Source: Ectocarpus siliculosus (Eukaryota > Sar > Phaeophyceae > Ectocarpales > Ectocarpaceae). From it: a DNA stretch of 64,000 bases. Where the stretch lies: the NCBI GenBank assembly GCA_000310025.1, contig FN649727.1, forward strand, positions 1,300,211-1,364,210, read 5' to 3'. The stretch's first letter is position 1, and each line of letters starts with the position of its first letter. This document shows, one piece after another, positions 23,582-58,146 of the stretch. Both the position numbers and the translations under genes were made by a program. The notes beneath the pieces are model-generated. The model had not been told where the DNA came from. It did no database searches and saw only the letters and a list, made by a program, of their open reading frames with translations.

Positions 23582-25650
23582 CCAGTTGCGTCAAAAGATA
23601 AGCATTGTTTAGTACCGTTGGGTCTCACTGTTGTTACAAACAGGCTCGGGCCGGGGTTTGCTGCTGTGTAATGGACACGCGGAACGGTCTGCGTTTCCTT
23701 CAGTTTCGACGCGGATGGAAAGCGGAACCGGACATGCAACCATGGAGTGGTGCATGCTATGTGCACCATGATTTCCTGTCTTGGTTGCGGTTCACACTAC
23801 CGTAACGCCCATGGCATCTGGCATGCAAACGTCGGGGTAAACGCCACCACCGCTGTCTCTCATGACACGGCGACATCAGAACGGGTTGTCTCTCACTGCT
23901 GCCTCCATTTCCCTCTCTTACCGACCTCTGCATGTTTCTCTCTCTTCTGGATACACATCTACCTTACATCGCTGCTTGCCCTCTCCCGTTCCAACTTCCC
24001 TCCCTACCGTGTCCTGGATGGTGATCGTCTTCTCCTTCTCGTCCGTGGCGATCATGATCTCCGACGGCGCTGAGCCCTCCTCGATCGCTTCGCCGACCAC
24101 TTGCAGGTGCCTCAGCTTCTCCATCGCGTCCGACGCGTTCGATATCAGCTCGCGGAGGAACACCTCCTTGTCGGTGTAGATGGAGTGGGTCACGATGTCC
24201 AGGAGCTGCCTCGTCTCCGCCTGGAACTCGAGCTTCTTCGAGGTCGTTGCCAAGAAGGGCGCGATAGACACAAAAGGATCGTGGCGAAGAATTAGCTGGA
24301 CATTGGTCGCAACAGACAGTTTTGCGCGACCTTCACCGAAAAAATACTTGCTATTTAATACTGTAGTGGTGCCTGCGACGCCAGCGCCAACAATGCCGAG
24401 ATAGCACGCCCAGTATGAACATTTATTTGTCGTGTTAAGAGGGTGAGGAGGGAAACAGAGTATAGAACCCGAACTTACGAATGATGTGCGCAGAGTGAGA
24501 GAGAGAGACACACACAGACAGAGAGAGAGGCAGGCAGGCGGGCATGGGGAAAAGAAAACCGGAGAGAAAATGGCCAGAGGGGTAACAAGGCACCACTGCG
24601 AAGTTGACGGCACAGCTCCGACGCTGTCCAACTTCCGTCTAAGCGATGTGGCACTTATTCCTTGAACAATTCAATGCGCTGGTGGCACCCTGCATAGAAC
24701 CCGTACGAGCTGCGCAGAACCCGTGTGCCAGCTAAATCATTGCTGTCGGGTTCCACTGATCCCGTTGCGAGGGGCAAGGGAACAGCCAGCATGACACAAC
24801 ACCCCGCCTTTGCCGTCAAATACTGCAAAGTCGGTGAATGGGCGGAAGCGCGGGCTGCTTTCGAGAGGGACACCGCCTCACTCGAGCAGGCGACATAACA
24901 AGCTCATCGAGTCGTTCAGTGTAAGCTGCTTTCCCGGGGAGAAACGCTGCTGCCGTTGTACAGTTGAAGTGCAGCGGTGTTCTCAGCAAGTGTTCTGGTT
25001 CTTGCGGCACCGTCGTTGGTCGGAATCGAGGCGGTTCGACTGGTGCACCTACATATGTAGCACGGCCACAGAGAGCCCGGCAGCTTGCACTCAGAGCGTG
25101 CTGCCACACGGGTGGGAATGTGCCAGTGTGAAGGACCACAAGGATGTATCTACGTTCGATGTACAGCAGAGGTGTTACCAACATGGCCTCGCAAAGCCAC
25201 CTGCGGCTCCCCGCCGTTTGACCGCACAGCAGTCAACACCACTGGTTCCGCTGGAGAAAAACTCTCGCAATTTGCGCATGTTCTACACAGATCAATCAAG
25301 ACGACCACCACTGCCAGAACACGCACACAAACACCAAAGCAGCAGCGCCATCTGCACGGCATGTGCGTCGTGCAAGCGCAACATACCTCCTCTTCCTGCG
25401 CAGAAGACGCCGACAGCCCTCTCACGCCCCAGCACGTGGGCATCACAGGGCTTCTCCGCTGGCGCCGCAGAGACTCCTCTCCCCTAGAGCCCAGGGTTGC
25501 ACCCAGTGCTGCAGGGGCAGCATCGCTCTTCGCCGAAGCTCGGCAGGCGATCCTCCTGGCCGTGTCTCGTGCGCACTGCGGAGGGTGTGGTCGTGTGGTT
25601 GAGCTTGACGCTGCTCTGCGAAGAGGCCCCGACACCGCACGCAGCATCAT
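15555..25650 (-). CDS. TRAP1: Mitochondrial HSP90 chaperone, TRAP1-like
   Basis: ATP-dependent HSP90 chaperone expected in the mitochondrial matrix. Thirteen exons join in phase: 25650-25387, 24235-24008, 23510-23139, 22634-22566, 21200-21087, 20505-20386, 19701-19456, 19166-19057, 18742-18640, 18100-17873, 17132-16975, 16443-16309 and 15741-15555 (about 777 aa). Exon 1 is an Arg/Ser/Ala-rich presequence ([17 protein letters not shown] up to [12 protein letters not shown]). The ATPase domain shows [24 protein letters not shown] (Asn about 121), DTGIGM (163-168) and GQFGVGFYS (from 214). The middle domain shows [28 protein letters not shown] and [16 protein letters not shown]. The C-terminal domain shows [29 protein letters not shown] and VEINPKHPL. 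There is no MEEVD or KDEL end; the tail is Lys- then Ala/Thr-rich. Intron 6 begins with GC (20385-20384). An acidic insert (DSDEEEDRT) lies in exon 10. The exon 2 start is the least certain boundary. Confidence 0.93.
23548..23580. repeat. GA-rich microsatellite in a TRAP1 intron
   Basis: An imperfect GA run, interrupted by one GAAA, just upstream of the exon 3 acceptor. On the TRAP1 coding strand it supplies the CT-rich tract of that intron. A second GA/CA-rich run lies at about 24495-24530. Confidence 0.7.
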
Positions 25651-26642: not shown

Positions 26643-29600
26643 ATGACTCGATCCGACGCCTTCTTAGCCACTGCCGTCGCCCTGATGGCGGCGGCGGGCT
26701 CCTACCCGTCGACCTTCGCCTCGGCGCTTGAGCTAACTGCAGCGAACTGCGACGACCTCGGCGCCCTGCCCACAACGCTGACCGAAGACACAAATTTGCT
26801 CCTCGATGTGCCTACCATCACGTACGGGAACCCCGACTTGAACTGGATCTCCTGCGACACGGTGAAGTAATTCGTTGACTGCTACAGTATGTCTACAGTG
26901 GTAGCGTGATCTATCTGTGATGTGCTGGTATTGGACTACAGTAGATGTGTCTAAAAGGCGTGGTCTTGGTGTAGGTGTCTCGTTCTGCTGCGGGTACTGG
27001 TAGCGCCGACCTTTCCACAGCGCGGAATATGCACAGCCGTCTACAGCAGTACTCAAGTCTATGAATGTTGGGCCGTTACTGTGTTGACGCTTTCGCTAGG
27101 GAAAATATGGTAGACTGCAAGAAGTACACCAGCTCTCCGAACTACAGTGGAGCTACGAGCTAGCACGGTGAACTGGACATACCGGTATGGCCATCGGAAG
27201 TACATTACAGCAGTATTGTTGATGCAGCCCTTTTTCCGAGATCCCAAACTTTTTCCCTGCTTTCCAACACACTGTTCAAATGATGGTTGATTGGTTGATG
27301 CGAATCTGACCTCTGCAAAATACTCACAGCAGGCTGGGTCCATGTGTCTGTGCAGTAGGGCGGGAAACGTAGGGCAGGTGGCCGGAAAACGGGGGATGAA
27401 TCTCTGTTGGCACAGACGCTAGAGTACTTGATGAGGGTGGGTGCCCGCCCTACATAGGACGGGTGAATCTGCCTGGCACAAATCATACTCGCCCGATTGA
27501 GGGGCCAACCTCAATTTCACGATAGTCAAATGGTATTTCCCCGAACGATACCTCGTGAGACAGTTGTCAATACAGTACGGACTACTTCGTGAGGTACGGC
27601 CGCCAATGCGTAACGTATTACGATATGCAGAGGGATGTAAATGTATCGATATCCTTTGACTACTGCTGTGTTGTATATTGTCGAGGGTGTGCATACGAAC
27701 CCGAATAGTGCGGAGTTTTTCTTCGCAGCGGTGCTTCCTCATGTGCTGGGTCCCGGAATAGTACGGAAAACGCCTTAGGTTACTCAGATCCCTGATTAGG
27801 GTGGTGGCCGCATTTTTTTTATCCTGGGCCGTGCAATGCGTGTACTTCGTACTATGCGTATGTACTGTCCAATGTTGCCAAACCTCAGCGGTTTGTACCC
27901 AAGTTAATTTGGTCGTTAGCCCGTCGGGCTGTCTTGCGTTGATTAGTCCACCCTGTGAGAGCCAAACTTGGTGCTGGGGAACCCTGTCGCTCTGGTTGTT
28001 AACCCGCTGGCCCCGTTTCGCTTGTCGCAGATAACAACTGTCCACGTCGACGGGCCGTACAAATTTATCGTCACGACCGACATGGACAACTACAACTTCC
28101 AGAACGCGCGCTTCGAGGTGAAGGGCGGCGCCGACCTCACCTTCGATATCGAGGGTCGTTTTTCCTTCAACTACGCCGAAAGCCAGGTGAGATCTTGGTG
28201 CGGCGTGTTTTCCCTAAAGAGCCTCTCCATCCTCTCCATCCCTCCCACTGTAAATAGGCGCCGAACCCTACACATTTTTCTCCTACACATTTTTCTCACC
28301 CAAGCATAACCAATTTTGGAATCGAAAACAGCCCGTGGAGACACAAACCTCTACGGGCAAGAACAAATTTGAAAGCAGCCAGGGCTGCTGGTACAGAGTT
28401 TTTTCTTCCAGAATGAAAACAAACGCTCCACCAGCTGCGTCGTGCTTCCGTTAGCAACAACGAGAAAAACACTACTACAATATCCGTGAAGAAGTCTGCC
28501 TTCGAATGTATAGAATAGCTCAGCTCCGCGTCTTTTTGTCGAACATCATCATGTGTTCGAACACAGTGCGGTTTGTCTCCTAGTCACAGAATGTGCGCCA
28601 CTACGTCACCGAGAAAGCGCACCGAGCCATGGTGATGCAGCTGAAGACATTGCCGTGGTCGAATTTGACATCATGCAGAAGAGACGTGCTTAGGCGGAGT
28701 GGGCCCTAAGTACGACAGTTTGGGCGGCGATCTATGACGCACCGTCACCCACACCATTGGGACAAAGCTGGATACGCTATGGCCCCCTGTATCACCCCCC
28801 GTCGTTGAAACTAGTTAGAAAGCGAGCACCGCAAAGAATAATTTTGAGCAGAAGGCAGGCTTCAAGGTACCTGTCGCGACGTGCCGCACCGCCTGATCCA
28901 CGAAAAACCGTTGCGCAAAGGGCTTGTCGGTGATCACTTCGCGCTTCATCCCTGGGGCCCTTTACTCAATGGCAACTGTTAGTTCTTACGTTTTTTATTT
29001 TTCTATGTGTTTCTATGTGTTTCGTTCGCTTTCGCCACGACTCTTTTTTGTCGGACAGGGGACAGACGGTGGGGCGATCTACGTGGAGAGCGGTTCGTCC
29101 GCGACTTTCGACGTGCCTAGCAAGGTCAACTTCGAGGGCAACACCGTCGAAGCCGGGTACTCCGGGGGAGTAGTGTACGCAGGCGGAGAGGTGAGGAAGG
29201 AGGTCGTCCATTTCTCGTCCTGCAGATGTAGGCGCGTGTGCCACACGAATCAGGGCGCTCCGCCGCACTTTTGTTGCGCTTGGAAGGTCTCCTGTTTCGG
29301 TGCCTTCCACCTTGGGGGGGCCTTGGGTTTGGGACTCTCGTTGTGCCTGGGGTCTTCGTCCTGCGAAAGAACTTTCTACCTCGAGCGGAGAGAAAGGTTA
29401 CACCGTGTAGATCGAGTAGAGCAATTGGAATGTGGCACTTCCAAACCAGGGATGGCGGCACCGGTCACCGGATTGAACCAGAAGCACACCCTCGCTAGTT
29501 CCAAGAAAATGTCAACGACTCTGAAGTGGTCGCAGCATACAAACGGCGTTGCTCTCCCCCTCTCGGTTCCAACACCGTGCAATATCTAGCTTCTAGTAGT

Positions 29601-32600
29601 GCGAACATGCCCCAACACCAAGAATTGCCGCTCACAGGTTCGAAAGACGTAGTCGTGCGTCCTCTCCCGCGACCCTTGGTTAGCAGGAAGCCTATGAAAA
29701 GGTTGATGGTGCACCCCAGCGTAGATGAGTTCTTCCAACGACAGGACCCTCCAACTCCAGACGCTATCCGCAGGGCAACCTTGTCATGGATGTAACGCGA
29801 CACAAGCTTCGTTCGCCCTAGTGAGGTCCCGACGACATCCGCCAACCTTTTTCGCTCAGGAGAAACCCTTTCGTTTTTTTTTTCCTCGTCTCGCCTGCGG
29901 TGTATGTATGCCTCTGTCACCCCTGAGAGGCATATGGTTTCCTTACCGTCCCCAAAAAGAGCCACACCAGAAGAATATCAACGTCTCGTTGCTTCTTCCC
30001 GTTTGTCCGTAGACTTGGGGTGCGGTTTTGAGAACTGACGCGCTGGATAACAGCAACATGAAAAACAACAATGACGTGCTAGCTAAAGAAAGCTTGCTGT
30101 TGCCTACCCGTGTCGGTGGATGTTTCTGACGTGACTCCATGCTGGCGTTACGGGCAGGTGGTGTTTACGGGCGACGCGGTGTTCATTTCGAACGAAGCCC
30201 GGAGCTCAGGTGATGAACCCGCGGGATACGGCGGTGCCGTTGCGGTTGGCCCTGAGGGAAGCCTTGAGTTCCAAGGGGCCTTGGAGTTCACCGACAACAA
30301 GGCTCAGAGCGGCGGAAGTGGAGGAGCGATCGCCAACTTCGGCTCCTTGGTTTTCCGGAGGAAGAGCTACTTCTGGTTCAACACCGCCGCAGGTACGTCT
30401 TGCCACCTACGCAATCCTGTGCTTCTTCACCTACGTGTGAAAGCGGAGTTAGATGACGTCATCGTTGCCACGCGTGCTCACCATCCTCTATATTCGTATT
30501 CGTCTGAGGTTCATGCACTGGATGTGCCTGATAATTCCCTGCGTAGAGTCGTATTGAAACAGGACTCGGCTGCACGCATAAGGAAAAAAAAACCAACTAT
30601 TTGAAACTAGAACCCGACGACGCTACATATTATTTTCTACCTAACGGTCCTGAGATTGTCTAGCTCTTATTCTGCTTTCATCAGACACGACGTGACTTAC
30701 TATGCTCGTTTTCCTCGCCTGTGCTGTCCCTTTGGCTTCAACGGTACGAATGGCCGAAGGCGCATGCGGCGTAAATACGGTAAACAAACTACATGTAGCG
30801 CAGAGAGTTGAAGAACCGGATCGCACGGAACTCGATGGCCGTGGCCAATCGCCCACCCAAAATCGACCGTTTCTCCGGAGAAGAGGAGCACGCGGGTCGA
30901 ACGGAACCCCTTGACCAACAGATCCTAGTACAATCACTTTTCCCGATTGTTCCACCCGCCTAATGCCGCCCACCCACCCTCTCTCTCTCTACCAACCTTG
31001 CGTAGAGGACGCCAATGGAGATGGCGGTTTCGGCGGGGCCATCTATGCCGGGTATGGGTCCACCACCGAGTTTTTCAGGAGGACGATCTGGTTCTACAGC
31101 GAGGCCGCCAGCGGGGGCGCACTCTACAACCTCGGGGAGGTCATGCTGTACAGCAACGGGTTCATCAGGGGCAACAAGGCCGTGGTGAGGAGGGGTGACA
31201 AGAGTCGGTTGTTTGGACCAACGGCGCGTACAACTCATATCCATGCGCGGTTCTTGTTGGTGTACGAGGTAGCATCGTTTCGCGCGTCGCTCGCAGCAGA
31301 AGCTGGAGGTTCTGTGTTGATGACGTGCGTGGTGAGAATTTCGTTGTTTGAGGGGCGTGGTGGCAAGTGGACGGGCCGTTGAGCTCCCAGCCGGTGTTGA
31401 GCCGCCGACGTGGACCTGCCGCCGTTTCAGGTTTCGCTCTGGAGCCTTTGCTCGGATATTTAAAACCTAATTTTCATGTCATGTGTACGGGCCGCTCTCC
31501 CGGTGCACGGAGTCGTACTTTCGTTTTCGTAGCCTGCAAGACATGAAGGTCCTGAACCCCTACCGCCTCTGCTGCTCGTCCAAGCAGGGTAGCGTCAAGG
31601 CAGAAGGGGGACATATCTACAACTTGGCATCTGTCGTTGGCGGCGAACCAATTTACACCGGCGGGCAGATACAATTTAACGGTGACAAGGTCAACTTTCG
31701 TGAGGGCGAGGCCAAGCGTGTAAGTGGAGATCTGTTTTCGTACATTGTAACCTGGGGGGCTTGAGTAGAGATGCGTAGGAGGTTGTTTGTTGGAAGCGTC
31801 GTTCGAAAAGCGGAACCTACTCTGAAAGCGGCGCCAGCCCTTGGTGGTGATCCAGAAAGCCGAACCCCGTCTCCGAAGACCTACAACGCGAGCGGCAACT
31901 TGTAATCAGGACAAGGACGACTGGCAACGAACACAATTGCAGCCCAGGCACACCATGACCATCAACCAGCTGGTTCCAACGACTCACGCATTAGCGATCG
32001 GCTTTCTGCCTGAAACTGCTTGTTGTACTATTGCAGGGCGGAGCCTATTTCTCTGGCGGTCCGGGTTCGTCCTTGTCCTATCACACCGCGCCAAACCTCT
32101 TCGACAACTTCGCGGTAAGTTTGGGTATTTGCTCGTTTGTTCGCGTTGTTGTGAAATCATGTGTGGATGATCGACAGTTTCACAGCAACCGGTTTAGGCA
32201 AGACGAGAAAGTTTGCTGAGGTACCTTCAACTCTGGTTGTCCTTGAGACGAAAACTGCCTGTTCTATGGATGCATCGCCTTTCGAAGGAAAGGCGAACAC
32301 TTCGTGGAGAAAGACATTCCGGCCGTCTGGTAGAGCTAGACCGCCGACCTGTTGGCGAGCTATTGTATCTACATGGAAGTGACGATCCGTTGGTGAAGTC
32401 AAGGCATAGTTGCACTATGTGCCGCCGTGAGCGCCACCGTCTTCCTTCTGTCTTTCTCGCACTTCTGTGTCGGAGCGATTGACAACTAACAGTTCTAGGG
32501 CATCTGCGGTTGCTGCAGGAACAACTGCTGTAGGCTATGTACGCTGCGTACATAGGAGTCTCCTATGCTGGTTTTCTGGTCTTGCACTGCTGTCGCCGTT

Positions 32601-45018: not shown

Positions 45019-48000
45019 CTACATAGAAACGGGGGGAACGGTATGCTTGGGGTAACATAGCCCGCAGTCAAACGCCCTTCTCACCTAACTCGATCGCTAC
45101 GAGAGAATCGACATTACCTCGATTGGTGTTTTGAAGTACATTCGCCCTCTTGCGTGTATGGCGCACGCTGGCCCGCCTTCCCACCGGACACCGGGCCACC
45201 CCGTCGAAGTGTTCACGACCGATGAGGCTACCCAGCGCAGCGCTGCCCACAACCTGTCTTCCGCAGTGGGGCCGAACATTGTTACCGCCAGGACCCTCTC
45301 CCCGCTGCCGACTTCTTCGTCATAGCGAATGACGAACGAGTACAACCAGTTCAGTCCACCGTCGTCTGCCCGGGCGTAACTCTGAAAAACTGCGCCATAC
45401 CTCCAGCATAGCCCCGACCTGACGGAGCCGACCTCATGACACGAGGCAATCACACGCTCCACGAGCCCGTGCGAGGCACCCGCACCATCAAACCTCCACT
45501 TCAGGGTCACCTCGTTTCCGCCATGTCGCTCGCTCAAGTCTCTCACCAGCTCTTGCAGCTCGCCCTGTATATTTTCTTCACAGGTATCAGGCAGCCTCAT
45601 TATCACCAGCATATCTTGCCGGCCGATTTGGCCGTGAGCGGCGGCAGGGTCGATGGCGCTCGCAGTGTGTCGTTCTTCTCGCCCGAGGGGTAGGGCTACG
45701 CCAAGACTGTGAAGGACACCGCAAAGAGCATCCATGACCTCCTCGGATGGCGGCGCCTCCATCTCAAGGTCCCAGAGGTACTCCGCAAACTTCAGCCGAA
45801 GCACTCCGTTGTCGACAAGCTCATCCTTCATCGCGGTCAACTCGCTCCGGGGAAAAAAGTGACTTTCAAGCTTATGGCTTAGGATAGGCTTCAAGGCCGC
45901 TGATAGCCAGACCACGTCCAGGAAGATAACGTCGCTGTGAGCAACGCGCAGGATGTGTCCGGCGAATTCGCTGAAACCGCACAGGGGGGAAAGGACAAAC
46001 CGATACTCCTTTGGCCCTCATTTCGAGCTCATCTGACTATTCACTGCGTTGTCGGCGTACAAGTTACCGCAACTTCCGGTGTCCAACAAAAGCGTCATCG
46101 TTGCACATGGTCCTAATGAAAGCAATACATGACGGACGCGGCCACTGAACTGGTGCAAGAAGTACGCGCCCTCAAAGCCGAGCGAAAAAGTGTTCAACAA
46201 AAAACTTGTAACTAGAATTTCACAGACCAAGCACCGAGCACCCGTCGCAACAAACACGTGACACAGTGAGAGCTGTTCCTTGCATCATAATTGTCAGTAG
46301 CACATCACCTGATCCAAAGCGCGCCTTCCATCGCACCGTGGTGGTCGGATACGGCCATCCTTTCCGCAGGCGACGTTAGCTCGCCCGCGACGCTCTTCAC
46401 GGTGTCGTTCCACCGTTGAAACAAGGTTGACTCCGTCATGAACGACGATCCTTGCGCCGCGCCCACTTCGGCATCAAAGTCCAGATGTAGAAACCGCCGG
46501 GTAGCTGGCTCTGGGTCCCTCGAATCCCTCAAAGCGTCGAGGAATGCAAGAGCGAGCCCCCAGCTGGGCGGAACGACTATGGAAGTGGCTCCCTGAGCAT
46601 CAACTCGAGCGATCACCTCCGACAACCCGCCCCCATCATCACAGCTGACAAGACTTGGCTGTTGCAGTATTGTCAGCTTCGTCACCCCAGGACTTTTTCG
46701 GTTCCCTTGCCATTCCTGCAGCTGTCTCCTTGCACTGCTTTCGACCGCGCCAGCAGTTCCGACGAATTCTTGAAGGGAGCCGTCGCACTTGTTCGCCACC
46801 AACAGTACCGCGGACCCCGGCACGCGAAGGTGTAGGGCATACAACCATTTCATGATGTCTTCGGACACGACCTGCGCGTGCGCACATATGTCTGCGGGTT
46901 GAAGTTGGAGATATTGTGCCACGATTCTAGAGGAGCGGAGGAAATACACGCACTCGGTCGTCTCTTCATGCTACAACTTGACTTGAGATGTTAGACCTGA
47001 CGTACCTTACGGAGTAGGGGGGCAGAACAAAAGCACCGTGGACGGTGACAGTACCATCTGTAGAGCAGAACCCACAATGCAATAACCCTTGCAATGACGG
47101 CTCAATGCCACGCTCACCTTGTCGAGATCGTTGCTCTCTTTACCGTGGCATCTTGAAACGTCCCACACAAGCAGGTACAGAGCTCGTCTGGTCAGAAAGG
47201 TCTGGTGCATCCCATAGTAGTCGACTTGACCTGCACAGTCGTAAAACTCGACAATTCTGCCATTCCGCTGATGGTGGCGGCGTAGCTCAATGCCCACCGT
47301 GCTCACCTCCTCCGACGTCCCAACCGTGCGGGATCCACGCTCGTTGACAATGCTATTGAGCAAGCTAAAAATAGACAGGGCATTTTATAGTCATACGACG
47401 TACAAAATAGCACACGGTGATTGATTTTCATGAGGAAAATGGGGCTTCAAAGGACGCAACGATCGATCGTATCTGTTGGCACCCATCGTAGCTCCGGCCG
47501 TTTCCGTTTTGTGAGGTACAGAAAACAATACAGTTGCCTGCTCGTGAAAAATAGGTTGGTGCACGAACATCTCACGTCACGGCTTTTGGAGATTTTGAAA
47601 TTCATGGCACAGTAGGAGTCCAAAAATCGAAACACCGCAAGGCGCCAGTATTTCAGGCAAGGACGTCGAGCAACTATTGCAGAACATCACACCTGGACAT
47701 CTTGCCGGCGAAAAAAACGCTCACAACATGCCATTGAAGTTGCCAACTTCATACGTAGGTAGGGTGGGGCTAGAGAGTCTTCAGCGTATTCGGCTTTTAT
47801 TCTGCATGTCCCCACAGGACACGATTGCCGGTTAGTCAACGTCGCCAAGAGATACCTGGTCTTCCCAGCTCCTGGCGATCCAATCAAGACCACCTTGAGC
47901 ACATTCAACGTCTTGACTTCAGCCCCGGCCTCCTCCGCCTCTCGCACGTCACGTAGGTACTTCTCGACGGCCGGCAGCCCCTCGTTGACAATGCCTTCGG

Positions 48001-51000
48001 GAGGCATAACCCAGGGGTTGTCTTGCAGCCGAAGGTTTTGGCCGGAGGCGAGTTGACCAAGCCTTGCCACGAACTGTAACGCTTGTTCCGCTTGGCCAAG
48101 GGCTGGAAGGAGACATGAGAGAAACGTCGGGTCGGCGATGCCATTCGCGCGAGGTTATCCACACCGTGCTTTGCCAACCCCTGTGAAGTACCAGTACTGC
48201 TATTTTCCCTCAAGAAGCATGAGGCGCGACTACAGGTGTGCAGCGACAATCAACAAATGTTCAGGGCGGTACTCTTCGACGCATCTACAACTACCCTGCT
48301 CTGCAGACTCACACCGAACCCCACAAACAAATCCACTCGGCTGCTACAAACTCTCACCAATGATGAGAGAAGGATGTGGATACCTCAACACGTGGATGTA
48401 ATAATCGTGTCGAACATGTGCCAACAACCAGAGGTCGCGTGCGCCGACCTGCGACCCCAACAAAGACAAACTAGGCCCACTACTGTAGAAACATTCTGAG
48501 GAGTTTTGAAGCCTAGCCTAGACGCATTCCAGTCCTCAATTGACCGCATGCATAACATAGGTTCAAACACTAAAGGTTTGATTTCTCACAATTTTAGTCT
48601 GTGGGACGATGTATACGGGGTGCTTCATGAGCACCCTCGCGCGTTTCGCACCCTGTGAGAGTCAGATGCCAACGCGGAGTGTTCCCTTACAGTTGTGCTG
48701 GAAGCGTCTGATACGGAAGGAGAATGTCCACCATTCTGTCTTTGGGAATTGTTGCGAAGATTCTCTGCCGACTGGGACAGATGGGGCATGTCATACCCTC
48801 GAATGTACGGAGAGGTAGGGTTCAATTGTACGGAAGCCATCCTCACCAGGTACGTGCTATTTACAGTATACTGTTATTCGTTGTTTCTGGGTGCAAGAGG
48901 GAGTAAGGATGCTGTTTGGCAGAAAGAAAAATAAGTATTGATTCACTGGGATTCAGTTGAGGAAGACAGGAGCGCATGTGTTTGTGGGACAAAGCGAGAG
49001 CGCATGTTTTCGGGGGAATGAGAGCGGGAGGATACAAATGTTTGGTGAGGGAAGGGGGGACAACTCTTGGAGTACACTAACATTTTGAGATATCGAAGCG
49101 TGTTAATGTCTCGGGGGCAAACTGATTATAGGCTGGATGACATTCCCTTGCCGTATCATAATGAATACATTTACGAGCAGGGAGCCTGTTGGGTGTGTAA
49201 TCGTAGAACAGTGATATGGGAGACCTTTCGATCTCTACCCCGCTGAATGCGGAGGACTATGGCGGACACTCGGAGTGTTCCAGTCGGGAATCGGGTTGTT
49301 GTCGGCAGAACCTTGCGTCGTGAGCGCATGATGTGGGCGTTCCGGGCTCTCGACCCACGAGGCACACAAGTATACACAAGTGATATACAACACGTATATG
49401 GGACAACAAAGATTTTTCCATCTTGGCTAGCCTTGGCTGAGCACCCATTCTCCGCACAACCACATGCCGGGCCTCCCGATCAAACGAACAGGACGATTGC
49501 CGAGGACACACGCCGATTCAAAGCACATGACGTACAGATCTCACCAGAGAACCTGTTGTTTCTCAGATCCAGCTCCTCCAGAGCACCGAGTCTAAAAAGT
49601 TCAGGCGGTACGGTGCCTGCGAAGCACATCGAACAGAGGGGACCGCACCGAACGCGTAGAAGAAAAACTGGTCGGACTCAATACCGTTGGAAACTTTTGT
49701 GGGTATTGTACAAAACGTACTACATGAAGTCCTAACGACGAAGAGAGAGAAGGCCGGGAGAAATGTTCGGTATTTCCCTGGTTCACGAGGGCAATATTCG
49801 AAGTATCCAGAGGGAATGCGTAGGGCTGACATCTGAAATCCCAACCACGCCCTGGATGGTCTAGGAAAATGTCATGAGTATGGTATTAATGCAACACTGG
49901 TCTGAATCGGGCCTCGGCATGACTACAGCGGGAACTGCAAGTCGATCCCCAGCGAAGCTTAACACGCCAATACCACACGAAAGCTTATGTATGCGACGAC
50001 GAAATCTCAACACAATAGCTTTGCATGGGCCAAAGTGAACGTGTTGGATGTACGCCGCTACAGCAACAACAGTGAGTGCGCGCTGATTATACTTGCCGCT
50101 CAGCTTGTTTTCCATCACGTGCAGCCTCTCCAAAGCCCCCAGGTGACCTAGCTCTGTTGGGAGTTGACCTGCGAGTCATCGTACCAGATCAAAGCTGCAT
50201 ATCATTAATTTCATCGTCAGACAAGTATGCCCTGCCGTGGCGCAAAACAAATGGTGTCATCATGCATCGTGCCGCGAAGTAGAGCAGCACACTTTGAAGT
50301 AGACTACTCATGATTACATGCATATCTACCCAAGGCACATTCGCGGCATGCCATAGTTCGCGAAATGTGGTTCGCGACGTGCAAAAATGTGGTACCCTCT
50401 GTCGAAGGTGGTATTGTTTGTAAGGGTCTGTAAACGAGCACGAACGATCATCATGTTTCGTGACGCAAGTCTCCCCAAGCAGACCAGCTTGATTAAGCTC
50501 GGGCAGGACACACTCTCAGACAGCAAAAAATCTCAAGCCGTCAGGCCAAGAAAGAACACAACCATCTCACTACGCATCAGATTCAAACATGAGGACGGTA
50601 AACGTTAGTGCCCAAGTCGCCCACACCATCACATATTCAATGGAAAATCGCTCCTCGGATGCCTGCCCCAATGAGCGACAAGGTAACGGTAAGAGCCATC
50701 AACACAAAGGCACCGCTTGACGACCAAAGGACGCAACCAACTCTCGTCTCCTTGAAGCCTGAGCAACCGATGAGAGGAAAAGACAGAACACAGCAGAGAC
50801 TTCTGTGTGAGGCACGGCCTTCCTCATACAGAGGATGGTCAGCCAACCGCTTTTTTCAGGAAATGGTCTACATAGTCTCCGCAAGAAAGGTTACTACACT
50901 CTTTGTGACCGTGCCCCAATCAACGTGCATTTTAAACGTTTCTGGTGGCCGCTCAACAACCAGCTACCTACTTCGGCGGAGGTGCGAGAATCCCCGTGCT

Positions 51001-54000
51001 CGTGTGTGAATCGGGCATTACACGAGAATGAACACGTAGCCTCCCAAGCTCACACCAAAACCGACCGCATTTCTTGGTTTTAAAGGTCTCTGCAAATACG
51101 TACAGTTGTCTTTCCCTCCGAAACCGTTTTCACCACTCGAGGCTACGTAGTGCAGAGAAACCTTGCGCATTCAATTTCCATCATTCGGTTAAGATAGCAT
51201 AAGTACACCTACCAGGCACAACCGGCCAGAAACGCCATCGCAGCTACTGAAACCTGTTTGTTAGGCTTCCAGGCAAACCAATCGGCAAGAACAGACTACA
51301 CATATATGGTCAAAATTTCTGTTGAACTTGCCGGTCAAGTCGTTCTTCGATAGCCACAGATGCTCCAAAGCCCCCAGCTGACCCAGCTCGCGTGGAATCT
51401 CGCCTGCAAATATGTCGTAACATGACCAATCAGATTCATTCCGCTTCCATGACAATGTTTCACAGACTGCTTTCCATTGCGGGCAGTTTTCTGCCGTGGG
51501 GTCGGCGTTACAGCAGTGGGCCTGCGTGAGCCACAACCTCTTCATTCGGCCGTGTCCACGACACCTTTGTTTTGGAAAACACCAGACGTTGCTCCAAAGA
51601 GCATATATATTGACACGCTTCGAGGCAGTGCTAACGAGGCGTAGTCATCCGGCAATGGTGCTAGAGAATCAACGCTTCACAGGCCTTCTCACCAGAGAGT
51701 TTGTTGTTCTTCAGGTACAGCAGCCTAAGAGAGCTGAGTCGACCAAGCTCTGGCGGGATTTTCCCTTCGAAGAGAAGCGGAATCGTGCGTAACGCCATAG
51801 GGGGGCAATAGCGCTCGCTCGTATCGGCATTGAAATGTATACGAGGAAAACGAGATCAGGCATGCCATGCGGCAAAGCATTGAGAAGGTTGAGCGCAACA
51901 CTCAGGCACCATCTGGGACACGCGAGCATAGGCTCATACGAGTCACAGGGATTTTCAGCATATAGTGGACGGCCAAACAAGGCATGTAGCGTTATCATCA
52001 ACTAGGTCACCAGCAAGCTGATGCATGACACCATCAGTAGACAGGGGTTACATAGCATAGGCGGAGGTTGAACTACGACAGTAAAGGTTCCGATACTGGA
52101 AAATAGTTGAAATTCGAAATCTGAAATGAATTGCAGAGTGAAATGAATGCTACATTTTGGTAATGAAAGCAAGCATGTATTAGAATTGTTCACGACAAGT
52201 GCAGCCCTCCTTACCGGTAAGCTTATTGTCCGACATGACAAGTCGTGTTAGAGACCCCAGCTGGCCGAGCTCAGGTGGAATCGGACCTGCTTACAGTCCA
52301 AGTTGAGGGCCGCGCAAAGAGGCATCGGTGAGTGAGTGAACAATATACTCGAGACCACATGTACAACCTTTCGCGAATCCCTCGGGCCGACTCTATCGAG
52401 AACACTGTGTCGTTCATCCTGTGACCACCGCTATTTTCCAGCATGAGAAAGGCCAATGACACGAACGAGCATCAAACACCAATATTAAACGCCTGATAAT
52501 GTAAAAAAACATTGGAAGAAGTATACTGTTGAGCAGCAATTTCATCAAATTGTATTTTCATCTCAGGACGGCCGATGGGCGATTCTTCGCGCCTCGGGCA
52601 TTCGGCGTAGTAGAATATTTATTGCGGCGTTGTTGCAATGACGCTGGCCTAGCGTTGTGAACTCCTCCGCTAGGACCGTGCGATCATCAACCCGTAGTCA
52701 AAACTACCTACCGGGCAGGTGAAGTATGTCGAGCAATAACCTCAAAGGAGCCATATGTCGACTGGAAATGGTTCTGAAACCCCTGTGAGAGCGCTGTAAT
52801 AGACAAGAAAAGTGAACAATACTTGGAATCGCGCCCGCTTGATTTTCTTTCGTCGACTTCACAACTATAATAGTTCACTCCCTGTGTAAGCCACAGTTTG
52901 GTGAAGAACGACCATTACTTTATAGTTTGCAAAGCTCAACTGACAAATTCAATAACAATGGGCTGTAACCATGGCAGCTCACCCTTCTGGGTGACCTTGA
53001 CTGATCCCCCAACACGAACGCAGACACCAGGAGAAAGAGGTACCGCCAACCAAACAACCTCACAGCACGTCCTTGGTTCACAAGCTTGCTAGAGAGCTCG
53101 CGGGTGCGGTTAGTTCCGGTGTTCGGCGACGCAGTATACGGTCTTCGATATTGATCACACAGCAAGTTGTGCGGATGCACCCTGCTTGGCGTACTGGTAG
53201 TGGCCTGCCACGGCGCGACCAGGGAACTGTTTTCACAACATTGTGGAGCCTCAACAGGTAGGTATGTAACTAAATGCTGCCAGCGATATTTGTGAGGATT
53301 CTACTCTGATGAATCACTTCGTACCCGACGTATTATAGCGCCTTCAACTCTTGCGGGGGGACTACAAACTTCAAGACGTCGCAACCTCACCATGACTACG
53401 ACTAGCAGACTTTCCAATGCCAGTCTTCCAAAGGGTCTGTGCTGGTTTCCCCATTTGCAGAACGAATCCAATAGCTATGTTTGAGAGCGTGGGCTATACT
53501 TAGCACGTGTGGCTTGGAATATGTAAGAATCTTCACGTGCAGGAGTCGGGTTTCCCACACTTTCGGCGGTCTTGCTAGACCGCCCATGGGGCATCCATGG
53601 GCCCCATGGGCTGCACATGGGCACACGTTGTGCCCGTGGGCTGCCCATAGACAGCCCACGGGCTGCACATGTGCACTTGGTGCCCACGGGCGGCCCATCT
53701 GATTGCCCATGGGCAAGCCCATGGGCATGGTGGACACTTCGCGGGCGGTTCATGGACCGCGCATGAGTTCCGCTCAACCGGAACCAGTGTACTCGTAACA
53801 ATAGATAATGTGGTTTGGAAGGGGCATAATAACGGTTGAAAACTCTGACACAAAACCTAGCCCTAACCCCAAGCCCACACGATAAGTGCTAGGTTGGCGT
53901 GATGGCTATGTTCTCGGATGTGCCCACGGTGGGCACTGTGCCGGTGGCGAAGTTCTAGGTTGAAGTGCTCACGGTGGGCACTTTTTGGGCAGCTCATGGG

Positions 54001-57000
54001 CAGCTCACGGGCTGCCCATAGGTGGTTTCGCAAGACTACCAGCACCGTGGGAGTGAGGAGTCGGCACAAAGAAATTGCCAACGCTCACTCACCAGAGTGT
54101 GATTGCAGTGCGGCAGAGGTCCAAATCGGCCAGACAAGAGATAGACGGCGCACAATACGCCGTACCCATCATTACAACCGGTACAGCGTAGGACCATTTA
54201 AAGGTAGTAAAAATATTAGAGGAACGAGAGAAGATGATACAAACCAAGAGCTTGCATGGTCTTACCGCTCAACTGGTTGCTCGTCAGAAGCAGAAGCTCC
54301 AAGCCGCTGAGTTGACCCAGCTCCGGCGGGACTGAACCTGTAAACCGCGGGAAACAAGCATTCGAATAAGTGTTCGCCTGTACGCAGTATATATTTTTTC
54401 CATTGTCGCCATGGTGTTTCGACTAGTACTTCGCCCCGCATGCTGCCTTGCTCTCCAGAGTGACGTGGAGCATGCGTAGCGTGGCAGAGGAAACGTCGAC
54501 GCGGTGCAACTCCTTAACGACAACCAACTTGAGAAACCCATGCAGGGGTTCAAACGCCCGTGAAGCAACGAAAGAATAAGGAGGTGCAAGGCTTCGTTAG
54601 CGCATTGTGCATGTCGCGGGAAGTGAAATATACAGCGCGTACACCCATGCATCTAAAAAAATGTGTGTGACACGAAACCGCAAGAATGTGTACCCGGAAC
54701 AGCCGTTCGATTCTGTCATGCCATTTGCAGTGTGCGGTGGCAAACAGGCCCACAGAAAGCCCCCGCCACTTGAGGATCAAACACAATACTATAGCCATAG
54801 TTGACATGCCGTCGTTGCTACAGCCTTTACCAGAGAGATGGTTGTACTTGAGGTGCAGCCCCTTGAGTTTGCTAAGCAGGCCAAGCTCCGGTGGGATACG
54901 CCCTGCGAACATGGGTAAGCAGAGAGCATCCGGCCAAACGAACAGAAGAGCGTTCCAACGAGTTGACACCGTGTAGTAGCGCCACGATAGGCAAAGCTTC
55001 GTGCGCGTATGTGTTTAGACAGAATGGCTGCAGGGGGCGCATTCCTCGCGACATGATCACAGGCAACTCTGGTTGTCATCAATTACCCCAACCACAAGCC
55101 GACGTCGTTGCTAGTCTTTGCATCACTGCCACGGCAACGACGAGTTCTGAGTCCATTCCCTGTTGGGAATGCTGTACAGCTACCAAGCGCCGCGCAGGTC
55201 GGCGAAAAACACTGGCGGCTTTTGACGGCTATCGTCGTCTTCGTGGTTAGCATACCCGACCAGCAAACTTAGGCCATGGATTTCTGGTTGGAGAAACTGC
55301 CCCTTGTCCGTCCCCCTCACAGGGCAAGCTCCGACATTTGGGGAGGACCTATAGCGGTTGAGAAGATTATTCCAAAAACTCGACCACCTTTGAATGGGAA
55401 GGTTTTAGGCCTCGACAACGTGGAACAAAGTGTGCTATGTTCATAGTGACGAGTTATTGCGGTACAGAACGGGAGAAGGTTGTTTAGCTCACCGCTCAGC
55501 CTGTTTGACGGCAAAAACAGTTCCTCCAACGCCCCCAGCTGACCAAGTTCTGGTGGAATTGCGCCTGCTTACAATCAAACACGAGGGCCCGCGAGAAGTG
55601 AGGATTGAGGGGTCTTTCATCTGAACGCGATGGTACCCGGTTGTGCAACTGCATCATGACAGCTAACATCCAGATTGGGGGTACAGGCTGAACATTAGAA
55701 AACACCGCGCTCTGTGCCACAGCTCGGAAAACCCTAGCGACTTGGTCTTATTGAGGATGGGAATAGTTTTGCGCGCAAGAAACCAATGAGCACGTAAAAT
55801 ATAAGGTGTCATGGTGTGCCTCCGTCGACTCTACTTGGTGAACGACCGCAAAACTGGTGCCAAGACGTCAGAAAGGACAGGCAAGCTGGAAATATCTATT
55901 GACACGACTGGCGAAGACAACATCACCCCATATTGGATCAACAGAGTGTCGCACTAGCGCATGGCAGACAATCCTAGTTTACCGATATTCATCTAAGTAA
56001 ATGGGAAAGTGGATGGCATGGGCTCTACCCATTTTGGCCAAGGCACTTAAGGCCTTGACATTCATGAGGGTGAATTCATGCCCGGGTGGGGGGGTTGAAC
56101 AGCTGTTGCCCTCAAGACACTTGAAAATGCTTCGAATTTCTACCGTCAGTAGTGGGGCAGGCGGAGATGATGGGAACAAGGTTGGACTGGCTTTCAAGCC
56201 TGTAAACAATTAATAGCACCATGCTGAAAGTCAGCGGCGGGCTTGGTCTGCCAGTGCAATTGCTACAGAGCGACCAGCTACGGGGGTAGTTCCCTCACTA
56301 CCCGCGTCGACCGCATTGTGTACCATGGTTAAACTGATTCCTGGGGGGCTACCCTCTCGTTACCGCAGAAGCTGCCTACGGTTCAAGATAGCGGGAAAGT
56401 GATGAGTACAGTAGCCCTGAACTAAATTGCCACATACGTAGAGAGACGTCAACACGTAGAAAGGCGTCAATACAAATCCTTAACCTTTTCAAGCAACGGG
56501 CATGAAGGCTTACACCCACAACCGACCTCCATGCGAAAAAACTGCTGCCATACTCAAATACCGATCCGATGAGGAATGGACAACAGCTAGGTTCGGGAGC
56601 TTGAAAGGACCGACGGCGTGCTACATCGGCCTTACCGGTGAGCTGGTTACCACCCAGGTGCAGCGTCGTTAGAGCACCGAGACGACCAAACTCCGGAGGA
56701 ATAGCACCTGTAACAGAACACAAGCAGCAGCGGGAATCAAGCAAGCTGTTTTGCTCGTGCGGGAAACGAAGGGCACAATAGACACAGGAAGGGGGAAAAC
56801 TGCATGCACCAAATCCAAGAGTTTGGTGGCTATTTTGCCTCGTGGAAATCTCCTTTGGAGCCCTTCCGGCCGGCTTCCGACAACGACAAACCACCGCGGC
56901 ATGGACGCCCGCACATCTGGAAATACCGGAAAGTTCTAGCTCAGCACTCAAGGCATCGGTCTACAGCGCATCGACTGCCTCAGTTTTAGCTCAGATGTCC

Positions 57001-58146
57001 GTCAAGAAACAATAATGCACACTTTCCCCTATCTACAGAGATACCACGGGAAAGCAGCTGCCAAGGCCCGAAAATAAATATCGCCATGTTTGTGGCAACA
57101 CGGGTTCAACACCATCGTGTACTGTGTTTTTTCTGAAACCCCCGAAGTTCGCACACCACTTGAAGTTGCGCTATCTCAATACCCCCTTCAGATGACCAGG
57201 GAGGGTTGCGAATCTCTCATAGTCATTCAGTCCGTGGATCACACACCAGATCGCAACACCAGTGCTAAGCCGAAAAAGCGAAGTATGCTGCCTCCCAACG
57301 TGGGTTCTTCAATCTCACGCTCAAACATGCACCCCGTGTGCACGTCGCTCCGTGATTGCCAGGCGGTCGACTCCGCCCGATAAACTGTTGGTGTAGTCAA
57401 CGGTCGGGAACTGTGCAATCCAAGCTTGTCGTAGAGTTAAAAGCAGACGTGTTTCGCAATTGACTGATATGCTTACGGTTTTTGGTTCGGCAAACACGAG
57501 GAACATTCCGAGCGAACAGATCATGGTGACGGCGCTGCCCAAAAGTAGGATTGAAGCATCTTCAGGTCTCACCGATAATGCTGTTGCCTTTTTCAAAGCC
57601 ACCCGGCTGAGGTTCAGGTCCCCCTTGCAGCTCCAACTTCACCACTCGACCCTCTGCGTTCGTAGTGACCCCGTGCCAGCTGCCGAGGTCGTCCGCATTC
57701 TCCGCCCAGCCATCTTTACATGTCCACGACTCTCCGCCGGCGGTCCGATAAAAGTGAAGGAGCGTCTCTCGATCCGTCTGCGCCGAGCCTGCTCGAGGAC
57801 AACCGACACGATTGAGATCAACATGTGCAACATAGCACAAACCTATCACGCACAGCAGGCACAGTGCCCCCGGGGTCAAAAACTTCCAGGGCAGTTGCCG
57901 CAAGGCGAGTGGAGCAGGTGATAACCCCTTCCGGGGCAAACAAGAATCAACGGTAGTCTCAACAGCTGATTAGCATGATTGCGAGGCATGTGTTTACGCA
58001 AAAGGAGTAGGCAACAAGATAAAAAAACACGTGTTTGCACCGTACCTAAGAAGGACCTCACCTGTTGCGCTTGCCGGACCTCGGGCGGCCCTCGCGTCTG
58101 TAGGTGACGGCATTGCTCCTGCCGACTGTACGCTCGAACTGCTCAT
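44968..58146 (-). CDS. LRR-ROCO GTPase, candidate immune-type receptor
   Basis: Multidomain GTPase with an N-terminal cap, nine 24-residue LRRs, Roc GTPase and COR domains (about 969 aa). Exons: 58146-58062, 57788-57573, then nine LRR exons, then 48102-47856, 47364-47118, 46871-46309, 45970-45118 and 45018-44968. The cap reads TDRETLLHFYRTAGGESW and DDLGSWHGV, the usual opening of brown-algal LRR proteins. LRRs follow G-x-IPPELG-x-L-x-x-L-x-x-L-x-L-x-x-N-x-L-x-G. Roc shows the P-loop GSPGAGKTS (391-399, split by an intron in the Ser codon), DCAGQ (441-445) and NKCD (508-511). COR includes VIFLDVVWLSAALKPILSHK. All splice phases close. Starting instead at 57939 would replace the first exon by a segment with a hydrophobic helix. 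The last 17-codon exon (DKLKIVAGFAPPLSLA) is phase-correct but short; see the overlapping tail entry. Related genes in Ectocarpus have been proposed as pathogen receptors evolving by exon shuffling; that role here is inference. Confidence 0.88.
49545..56707 (-). other. Array of nine 72-nt LRR exons
   Basis: Nine exons of exactly 72 nt, all phase 1 at both ends, each encoding one LRR: 56707-56636, 55564-55493, 54902-54831, 54337-54266, 52286-52215, 51764-51693, 51403-51332, 50168-50097 and 49616-49545. Introns are 289 to 1979 bp. The second and third last (51403-51332 and 50168-50097) are followed by GC donors (GCAAGT) instead of GT. Because every exon has the same phase and length, any of them can be lost, gained or swapped without breaking the frame. 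Confidence 0.9.
53573..54030. repeat. Palindrome-rich GC minisatellite in an LRR intron
   Basis: Located in the longest intron of the LRR array (between 54266 and 52286). The dense part, 53580-53740, is built from variants of GGGCTGCCCATGGGC and contains a perfect 12-bp stem (53632-53643 with 53652-53663, 8-base loop) plus several CCCATGGG palindromes. A second cluster at 53918-54022 has mirrored GTGCCCAC/GTGGGCAC and GGGCAGCTCATGGGC units. Confidence 0.75.

Follow-up and report, generated by a model that had tools for sequence, protein, structure and literature searches.

The stretch studied here, referred to as the window, comprises 64,000 nucleotides (nt) of contig FN649727.1 of the brown alga Ectocarpus siliculosus (GCA_000310025.1; positions 1,300,211 to 1,364,210), and harbors on its minus strand a complete gene of the LRR-ROCO type, in which a series of equally long exons, here called cassettes, each encoding one leucine-rich repeat (LRR), precedes the ROC and COR domains. 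Elsewhere in the same genome, related arrays contain cassettes on both strands, in units delimited by a junction site of about 30 bp. It is likely that in this family the LRR exons move as site-bounded modules, by means of a putative cut-and-join enzyme, and that the window gene is a settled member. In the following, labels such as C2 or C15 denote contigs, and the genome searched is a single assembly of 189 Mb.

The LRR-ROC-COR gene of the window

In the predicted model the gene extends from start to stop codon over 45097..58146 (minus strand) and consists of 15 exons encoding 959 amino acids (aa); the splice sites were picked by the analyst, and the phases and the reading frame were checked and found consistent and free of stops, respectively. 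Exon 1 carries the start codon and ends in phase 1 (58062..58146), and exon 2 encodes an N-terminal cap (57573..57788; 216 nt, phase 1-1), both according to the spliced model. The nine cassettes follow as exons 3 to 11, recovered by a motif scan as well as in the spliced model, at 56636..56707, 55493..55564, 54831..54902, 54266..54337, 52215..52286, 51693..51764, 51332..51403, 50097..50168 and 49545..49616; each is an open stretch of 72 nt in phase 1-1, between AG and GT or, for the seventh and the eighth, between AG and GC. These two GC-AG introns (gcaagt) stand at neighboring LRR exons, 9 and 10 (donors 51332 and 50097), all other donors being GT. Introns 1 to 11 are all in phase 1, so that exon 2 is symmetric as well. 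Every cassette corresponds to one 24-residue LRR of the form GxIPPELGxLGALExLxLxxNxLS, and the nine repeats, once joined, match Pfam LRR_1 with E 1.3e-34. Exon 12 (47856..48102) contains the end of the LRR region (DNPW) and the start of ROC with the P-loop GSPGAGKT, exon 13 (47118..47364) continues ROC, and exon 14 (46309..46871) holds its end (NKCD) and the start of a COR-like part, all three being assigned from the model and from Pfam; the ROC domain, C-terminal of the LRRs, is matched by Pfam Roc (PF08477) with E 6.8e-16 and 59 bits against a cut-off of 27. Exon 15 (45097..45970) encodes the rest of the COR-like part and the stop codon, COR being assigned here by position and by similarity to a paralog on C2 (58% identity over 241 aa), with no COR family among the Pfam matches at E 0.1.

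A first-pass annotation of this DNA had placed nine exons of identical length and phase at this locus, a placement that is correct to the base (minus strand, 56707..49545), and had read them as one LRR per symmetric exon of an LRR-ROCO gene, which the 959-aa frame and the Roc and LRR_1 matches bear out. Its description of the cassettes as 72 nt long and in phase 1 also stands, while for the donors a correction is needed, two of the nine being GC. "Phase 1" is the "phase 2" of Teng 2024 (PMC11378527), in whose available text nt 3-71 encode 23 aa, and the difference is one of convention only.

Genes of this kind are well documented. The 111 LRR-ROCO genes described in the available text of Teng 2024 (PMC11378527) come from four brown algae, with Ectocarpus contributing 31; their LRR exons measure 72 bp, alternative splicing is reported, and four positions of the concave face show positive selection. 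PF16095 (COR) was found in 18 of the 111 genes. The first report is credited there to Zambounis et al. 2012, who, according to the same text, proposed that brown-algal immune receptors may be generated through controlled recombination of LRR exons, and it is further stated that somatic recombinant ROCO loci and site-specific recombinases had not been reported to date. In the main text of that paper the strings "inverted", "antisense", "orientation" and "palindrom" each occur 0 times. The window gene resembles the published family in its N-terminal, same-phase 72-bp LRR exons (9/9) followed by ROC and in its variable concave-face positions, the family being regarded as candidate immune receptors. 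It is an intact, ordinary brown-algal LRR-ROCO member with an architecture already published, and it belongs, as had been noted, to a family for which exon shuffling was proposed.

The differences between its repeats cluster at the exposed positions, as the first-pass annotation had claimed, with a mean entropy of 2.45 bits there and 0.84 bits elsewhere in the nine repeats. The ratio of nonsynonymous to synonymous change (dN/dS), which had been suggested as a check at the exposed positions, is 0.81 there and 0.18 at the other positions; because synonymous sites are saturated (proportion of synonymous differences, pS, 0.67), positive selection is not demonstrable and cannot be claimed at this locus.

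The idea that the locus is a clean case of shuffling is not supported, since it combines a single strand, dissimilar introns and divergent cassettes and has no junction site. Comparison of the cassettes with others of the genome and of the introns among themselves gave no trace of exchange: identity among the nine cassettes is 47-71% and does not exceed 75% with any of 96 other cassettes, and no mutual similarity was detected among the fourteen introns, except for a repeat inside intron 6, where overlapping palindromic repeats built on CCCATGGGC occupy 53590-54010. The junction site described below occurs 0 times in the whole window. Hidden 72-nt cassettes on the opposite strand were considered and rejected, the cassette finder giving only the nine, and the other matches of a looser motif scan looked like chance. 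In the absence of sites and of intron similarity, and with all cassettes on one strand, the locus was rejected as a recombination-active array; it looks like a settled copy derived from old duplications, with no exchange now visible.

In the nearest paralog, at C2:798639-808607, a single strand carries all the cassettes, of which one contains a stop codon; as there are six of them, they do not correspond one-to-one to those of the window gene. At C2:798639-802505 a direct duplication of LRR cassettes and introns, offset by about 1.9 kb, shows 90% identity over 2.6 kb. The junction site was found 0 times in 24 kb of this paralog.

Arrays with cassettes on both strands

About 31 ROCO loci were grouped by eye in the genome from 65 ROC-COR matches. 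The arrays examined were those of the window and of C2 and eight others, some of them not tied to a ROC exon (C15:2424327-2432359, C477, C4:2034501-2039000, C26, C234, C11, C16 and C476), besides short stretches of C20, C25, C80 and C134. Cassettes were located with a finder that accepts a 72-nt stretch matching 9 of 13 consensus positions with AG and GT/GC ends, so that a length of exactly 72 nt is given by construction. In the next relative, the C15 array, 11 plus-strand and 6 minus-strand cassettes with complete splice dinucleotides stand in one array, and further loci with interleaved orientations came to light when the genome was searched at the protein level. Together the eight arrays contain 120 cassettes on both strands, one of which has a stop codon; a similarity search listed nine stretches that are not intact, among them one cassette of the finder that carries a stop codon. 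Neighboring pairs occur in the orders +- (27), -+ (27), ++ (26) and -- (32), that is, the strand changes in 54 of 112 pairs, which is near the random expectation.

As a control, the other family proposed to be shuffled, that of the TPR repeats, was submitted to the same strand test. Both strands were represented in 11 of 14 LRR clusters (31 changes in 77), whereas this was the case in 1 of 20 TPR_10 clusters (2 changes in 81). The LRR figures are based on 116 of the matches listed out of 170, multi-LRR and isolated matches being left out, and the TPR figures on 131 of 150 matches, those in single open frames of at least 485 aa being left out; C476 was scored as one-stranded, though its DNA shows both strands. 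The sole TPR_10 cluster with an opposite-strand match is C6:3469686-3475001, and this match could be a neighboring gene or an inverted TPR exon.

This control also bears on the possibility that the mixed orientation is an artefact of assembly, which we find scarcely credible. Repeats are hard to assemble and undetermined bases (N) occur in C26, C11 and C25, yet all eight arrays, each on a contig of its own and in six cases on one longer than 1 Mb, show the pattern, the TPR clusters of the same assembly are mostly one-stranded, and the junction sequence learned in some arrays is recovered in others (see below).

For five of the arrays (C15, C4, C234, C11 and C16) the sense strand was read from the ROC/COR exon lying closest, at a distance of about 1 to 10 kb, a putative link. 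By this assignment, cassette-like stretches are intact in 25 of 27 cases in antisense and in 45 of 50 in sense; in each class, one of those not intact is truncated, either by N or at the edge of the examined DNA. At non-exposed positions the sense pairs have a dN/dS of 0.31 (0.21-0.42) and the antisense pairs one of 0.64 (0.39-1.32); a first contrast, of 0.25 for sense vs. 0.31 for antisense, was dropped, as the sense strand of C477 had been assumed in it from a terminal LRR-like exon. That the antisense cassettes are mostly intact could reflect either frequent flipping back under selection or youth. It is very unlikely that they are functional as such, whether as pre-mRNA hairpins that steer exon skipping or as exons of antisense transcripts. 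Such a role would agree with the side-by-side position of opposite-strand cassettes in 11 of 14 clusters and with the alternative splicing of Ectocarpus ROCO LRR exons reported in the available text of Teng 2024 (PMC11378527), but the splice sites of the antisense cassettes are complete on their own strand, which hairpins do not need, and the sites and the copies between arrays described below would be left unexplained.

The distance between cassettes depends on their orientation, with medians of 138 nt for tail-to-tail, 217 nt for head-to-head and 164 and 167 nt for head-to-tail neighbors, values that roughly fit units with fixed ends, lying about 108 nt upstream and about 68 nt downstream of the exon. 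Each module accordingly comprises the 72-nt exon flanked by intron sequence, about 108 nt on its upstream and about 68 nt on its downstream side, and the median length is 243 nt from core to core. The first-pass annotation had pointed to introns long enough for recombination; this is the wrong feature, as the arrays in which exchange is seen have short, site-bearing spacers (medians 138-217 nt).

The site at the module boundaries, about 30 bp long, is formed by two inverted 14-nt half-sites around a 2-nt core, e.g., gaatcctgccgac GC gttggcaggaccg. The half-site consensus, from the outer to the inner end, is about T[CG][AG][AT][TG]C[CAT]CGC[CG]NA[CT], with an information content of 11.7 bits per half-site. 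When no core was prescribed, with a matrix trained around GC, a site was found in 88 of 112 spacers vs. 2 of 1110 shuffled spacers; the core was GC in 72 of the 88 sites, TA in 5, a mixture (GCA, TGC or TAGC) in 6 and something else in 5. In a held-out test, the matrix was derived from three arrays through self-complementarity around GC and scored on the other three: a GC-core site was recovered in 26 of 34 and, with the split reversed, in 29 of 50 spacers, and in dinucleotide shuffles in 0 of 680 and 0 of 980. Two arrays added later have the site in 21 of 28 spacers, and the 10.5 kb upstream of the C15 array have it 0 times. Inverted half-sites around a short core at the boundaries of units, an arrangement by which site-specific recombination is recognized, are thus present in the paralogous arrays.

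The left and right half-sites of one site are alike at 7.62 of 14 positions, and halves re-paired at random at 7.81 of 14; since the first value is no higher than the second, the ends that meet appear to be independent of each other, and what is kept is the motif and not the palindrome. If ends were paired at random, 14.5 mixed cores and 0.8 TA-TA joints would be expected, and 6 and 5, respectively, were observed; the numbers are small, and the deficit of mixed cores and the excess of TA-TA joints would fit cohesive ends of 2 nt.

Module copies and their possible movement

For the core-to-core comparison given below, modules were taken when they lay between two detected sites, were at most 420 nt long and contained no N, which left 59 modules, 57 of them with a single exon; pairs differing by more than 25 nt in length were skipped, and the pairs are not independent. 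When the similarity of homologous units is traced outward from the exon, it often breaks off at a core, the end being no more than 8 nt away from one in 184 of 386 cases upstream and in 195 of 385 downstream, while re-dealing the site positions among the units gave means of 90 and 102 and maxima of 137 and 155 in 500 rounds. More distant ends, over 20 nt from a recognized core, number 126 upstream and 111 downstream, and where they stop more than 50 nt short (see below) some sites may have been missed. Blastn with lax scoring gave long matches of 60%, which were not used for boundaries.

Among the 57 single-exon modules there are 55 pairs with an identity of 85% or more along their full length. 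Taking as unrelated any neighbors with less than 65% identity (random median 57%, 95% point 75%), the flanking units are unrelated on both sides in 47 pairs and on one side in 8, and in none are they the same on both. Of the 47 pairs with unrelated neighbors, 24 are in opposite orientation and 42 lie in different arrays. Three pairs are identical from end to end: C15:2425875-2426097 and C11:4814455-4814677 (223 nt, opposite orientation), C4:2034810-2035036 and C26:5008945-5009171 (227 nt, opposite orientation), and C15:2427093-2427340 and C11:4814680-4814927 (248 nt). The modules, their sites, their mixed orientation and the identical or near-identical core-to-core copies in different arrays with unrelated neighbors are directly seen in the assembly.

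These copies have to be weighed against processes that require no dedicated enzyme, such as unequal crossing-over, gene conversion or non-homologous end joining at fragile palindromes, an origin that we consider unlikely. It is known that long palindromes can extrude and break, direct tandem duplication is present in the C2 paralog, and the spacers without a recognizable site, 24 of 112, could be counted for it. Against it, the inversion of single units of about 243 nt is not something that crossing-over or conversion brings about, nor are these processes expected to be the source of single-module copies, a common ending at the same 2-nt core is not expected, and the half-sites of one site being no more alike than re-paired halves, the pairing of the palindrome is not what is kept.

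In the mechanism that we propose instead, an enzyme would recognize the half-sites and cut with a 2-nt stagger at the core, and the module ends would then be joined with one another, in either orientation, which would allow single modules to be inserted, inverted and copied between arrays. The core being palindromic, orientation would not be controlled. Since the exon is symmetric (phase 1-1), a module landing in sense would add one LRR without disturbing the reading frame, and one landing in antisense would be spliced out as part of an intron and kept in store. The enzyme might be a recombinase, or else a transposase with exon-bearing elements as its substrate, and its action might be confined to the germ line or take place in somatic cells too. 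The enzyme, the staggered cut and the antisense reserve are what we infer from the arrangement of the arrays, as is the role in immunity, for which the presumed function as immune receptors is taken from the literature.

The distribution of the site in the genome was addressed with pattern searches that were exact or near-exact, with the best candidates scored, and which diverged sites elsewhere would escape. The pattern CSYGCSNAYGCRTNSGCRSG occurs at at least 13 places in the 189 Mb, and its reversed control at 0; nine of these places were examined as DNA and LRR cassettes or LRR motifs were present at 9 of 9, the remaining four lying within about 2 kb of LRR matches. The tail pattern TGAATCYYGYSKAYGCRT gave at least 66 matches (33 per strand; control 0), of which those listed, as compared by eye, each lie no more than about 2 kb from an examined array or an LRR match. 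A 79-nt piece of the flank gave at least 44 matches, those listed being in or adjoining LRR arrays. No dispersal outside LRR arrays was thus seen among the listed matches of the two exact patterns and the 79-nt piece.

This distribution is relevant to a further explanation, possible though rather doubtful, in which the modules are small non-autonomous DNA transposons with a captured LRR exon, and the half-sites are their terminal inverted repeats. The GC or TA core would then be a 2-bp target duplication shared by neighbors, and insertion beside an existing module would build the array. Such elements would account for the same short sequence, inverted, bounding each module, as terminal inverted repeats do, for the copies in either orientation in different arrays and for the 2-nt core changing as a class, GC or TA. 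What they would not account for is that the two exact patterns and the 79-nt piece are confined, among the matches listed, to LRR arrays and their vicinity, which is not how an ordinary transposon family is distributed; moreover, no transposase linked to the ends was found, RAG1 being the one transposase family searched. The transposon explanation and movement by a cut-and-join enzyme differ in the enzyme more than in the outcome.

Several observations weigh against the movement of site-bounded modules by such an enzyme. Searches with Resolvase, Phage_integrase and RAG1, the families covered, gave no recombinase or transposase linked to an array: Phage_integrase has four matches in the genome, one of them above the cut-off, and RAG1 gave no linked candidate in a search in which its positive control also failed to register. 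Training of the half-site matrix drew on GC cores in six of the eight arrays, so that GC is favored, and the held-out figures are not independent, as the test modules are related, and sometimes identical, to training modules. As mentioned, 24 of the 112 spacers have no recognizable site, and among the similarity ends lying more than 20 nt from the core, 85 of 126 upstream and 90 of 111 downstream stop more than 50 nt before the nearest recognized site. The dN/dS of the antisense pairs leaves continued selection on antisense cassettes not shown, and all that is seen of the eight arrays comes from a single assembly, in which C26, C11 and C25 contain N. The sole Resolvase match listed, at C16:5121001-5123400 on a contig of 8 Mb, is far from the arrays and was rejected as a lead; we take it to be an IS607-like serine recombinase with TnpB/Fanzor-like frames beside it.

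A bolder proposal would be that of a programmed, possibly somatic, site-specific recombination of LRR-ROCO exons by a dedicated enzyme, in which modules kept on both strands would be flipped or exchanged at the short palindromic sites, giving rise to clonally different receptors and thereby to an anticipatory immunity outside animals, which on present data appears improbable. The mixed orientation, the GC-core sites found, among the matches listed, only at or close to LRR arrays, and the exact copies are traces that a programmed system would leave; somatic action is not shown by them.

Relation to known systems and further features of the window

In bacteria, shufflons and invertible segments are rearranged by serine or tyrosine recombinases at single loci, with the recombinase nearby. 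The arrays described here resemble them in that segments lie in both orientations between short inverted half-sites, with a short core as the presumed point of exchange, and differ in that several unlinked eukaryotic intron-exon arrays are involved, for which no recombinase was found. The variable lymphocyte receptors of lampreys are assembled by somatic, conversion-like copying at coding homology, and, as is proposed for the present case, a store of LRR-coding cassettes feeds a receptor gene; here, by contrast, the units are exons with their own splice sites and with boundaries in introns. Miniature inverted-repeat transposable elements (MITEs) and introners share with the modules short terminal inverted repeats and a 2-nt common core, whereas the modules carry an in-phase exon and, among the matches listed, are in or near LRR arrays only. 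A parallel in exon structure comes from Tetrahymena, where, in the available text (PMC6564038), many LRR exons of equal length (90 bp) and the same phase are shuffled between genes; in that case ectopic recombination, possibly involving an element like a long interspersed nuclear element (LINE), is invoked, and the main text contains neither "inverted" nor "orientation".

For the ROCO genes of brown algae, no report of LRR exons in inverted position, of palindromes at junctions or of sites of recombination was found in the literature at the level of abstracts, Zambounis 2012 not being covered, and in a word search of the available text of an Ectocarpus transposon paper (PMC12477816) ROCO, LRR and MITE had 0 occurrences. 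No earlier description of site-bounded LRR exon modules in mixed orientation was found in the literature searched. The junction site offers a physical handle on the question, raised by Zambounis and taken up by Teng, of a controlled recombination of ROCO genes. Its 30-bp sequence could serve as bait for a binding protein and as a guide to possible new junctions, and would allow flipped modules to be counted in long reads from a single individual. Even if the process were slow and confined to the germ line, it would represent exon shuffling with defined and reused break sites. To our knowledge, this would be unusual in a eukaryote.

Apart from the LRR-ROC-COR gene, the window contains open frames with repeated motifs of the GGAIY..G type at 28897-31382 on the plus strand, which presumably resemble secreted parallel-beta-helix proteins. 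On the minus strand, an open frame at 23918-24670 looks to us like the N-terminal part of a chaperone of the HSP90/TRAP1 type.

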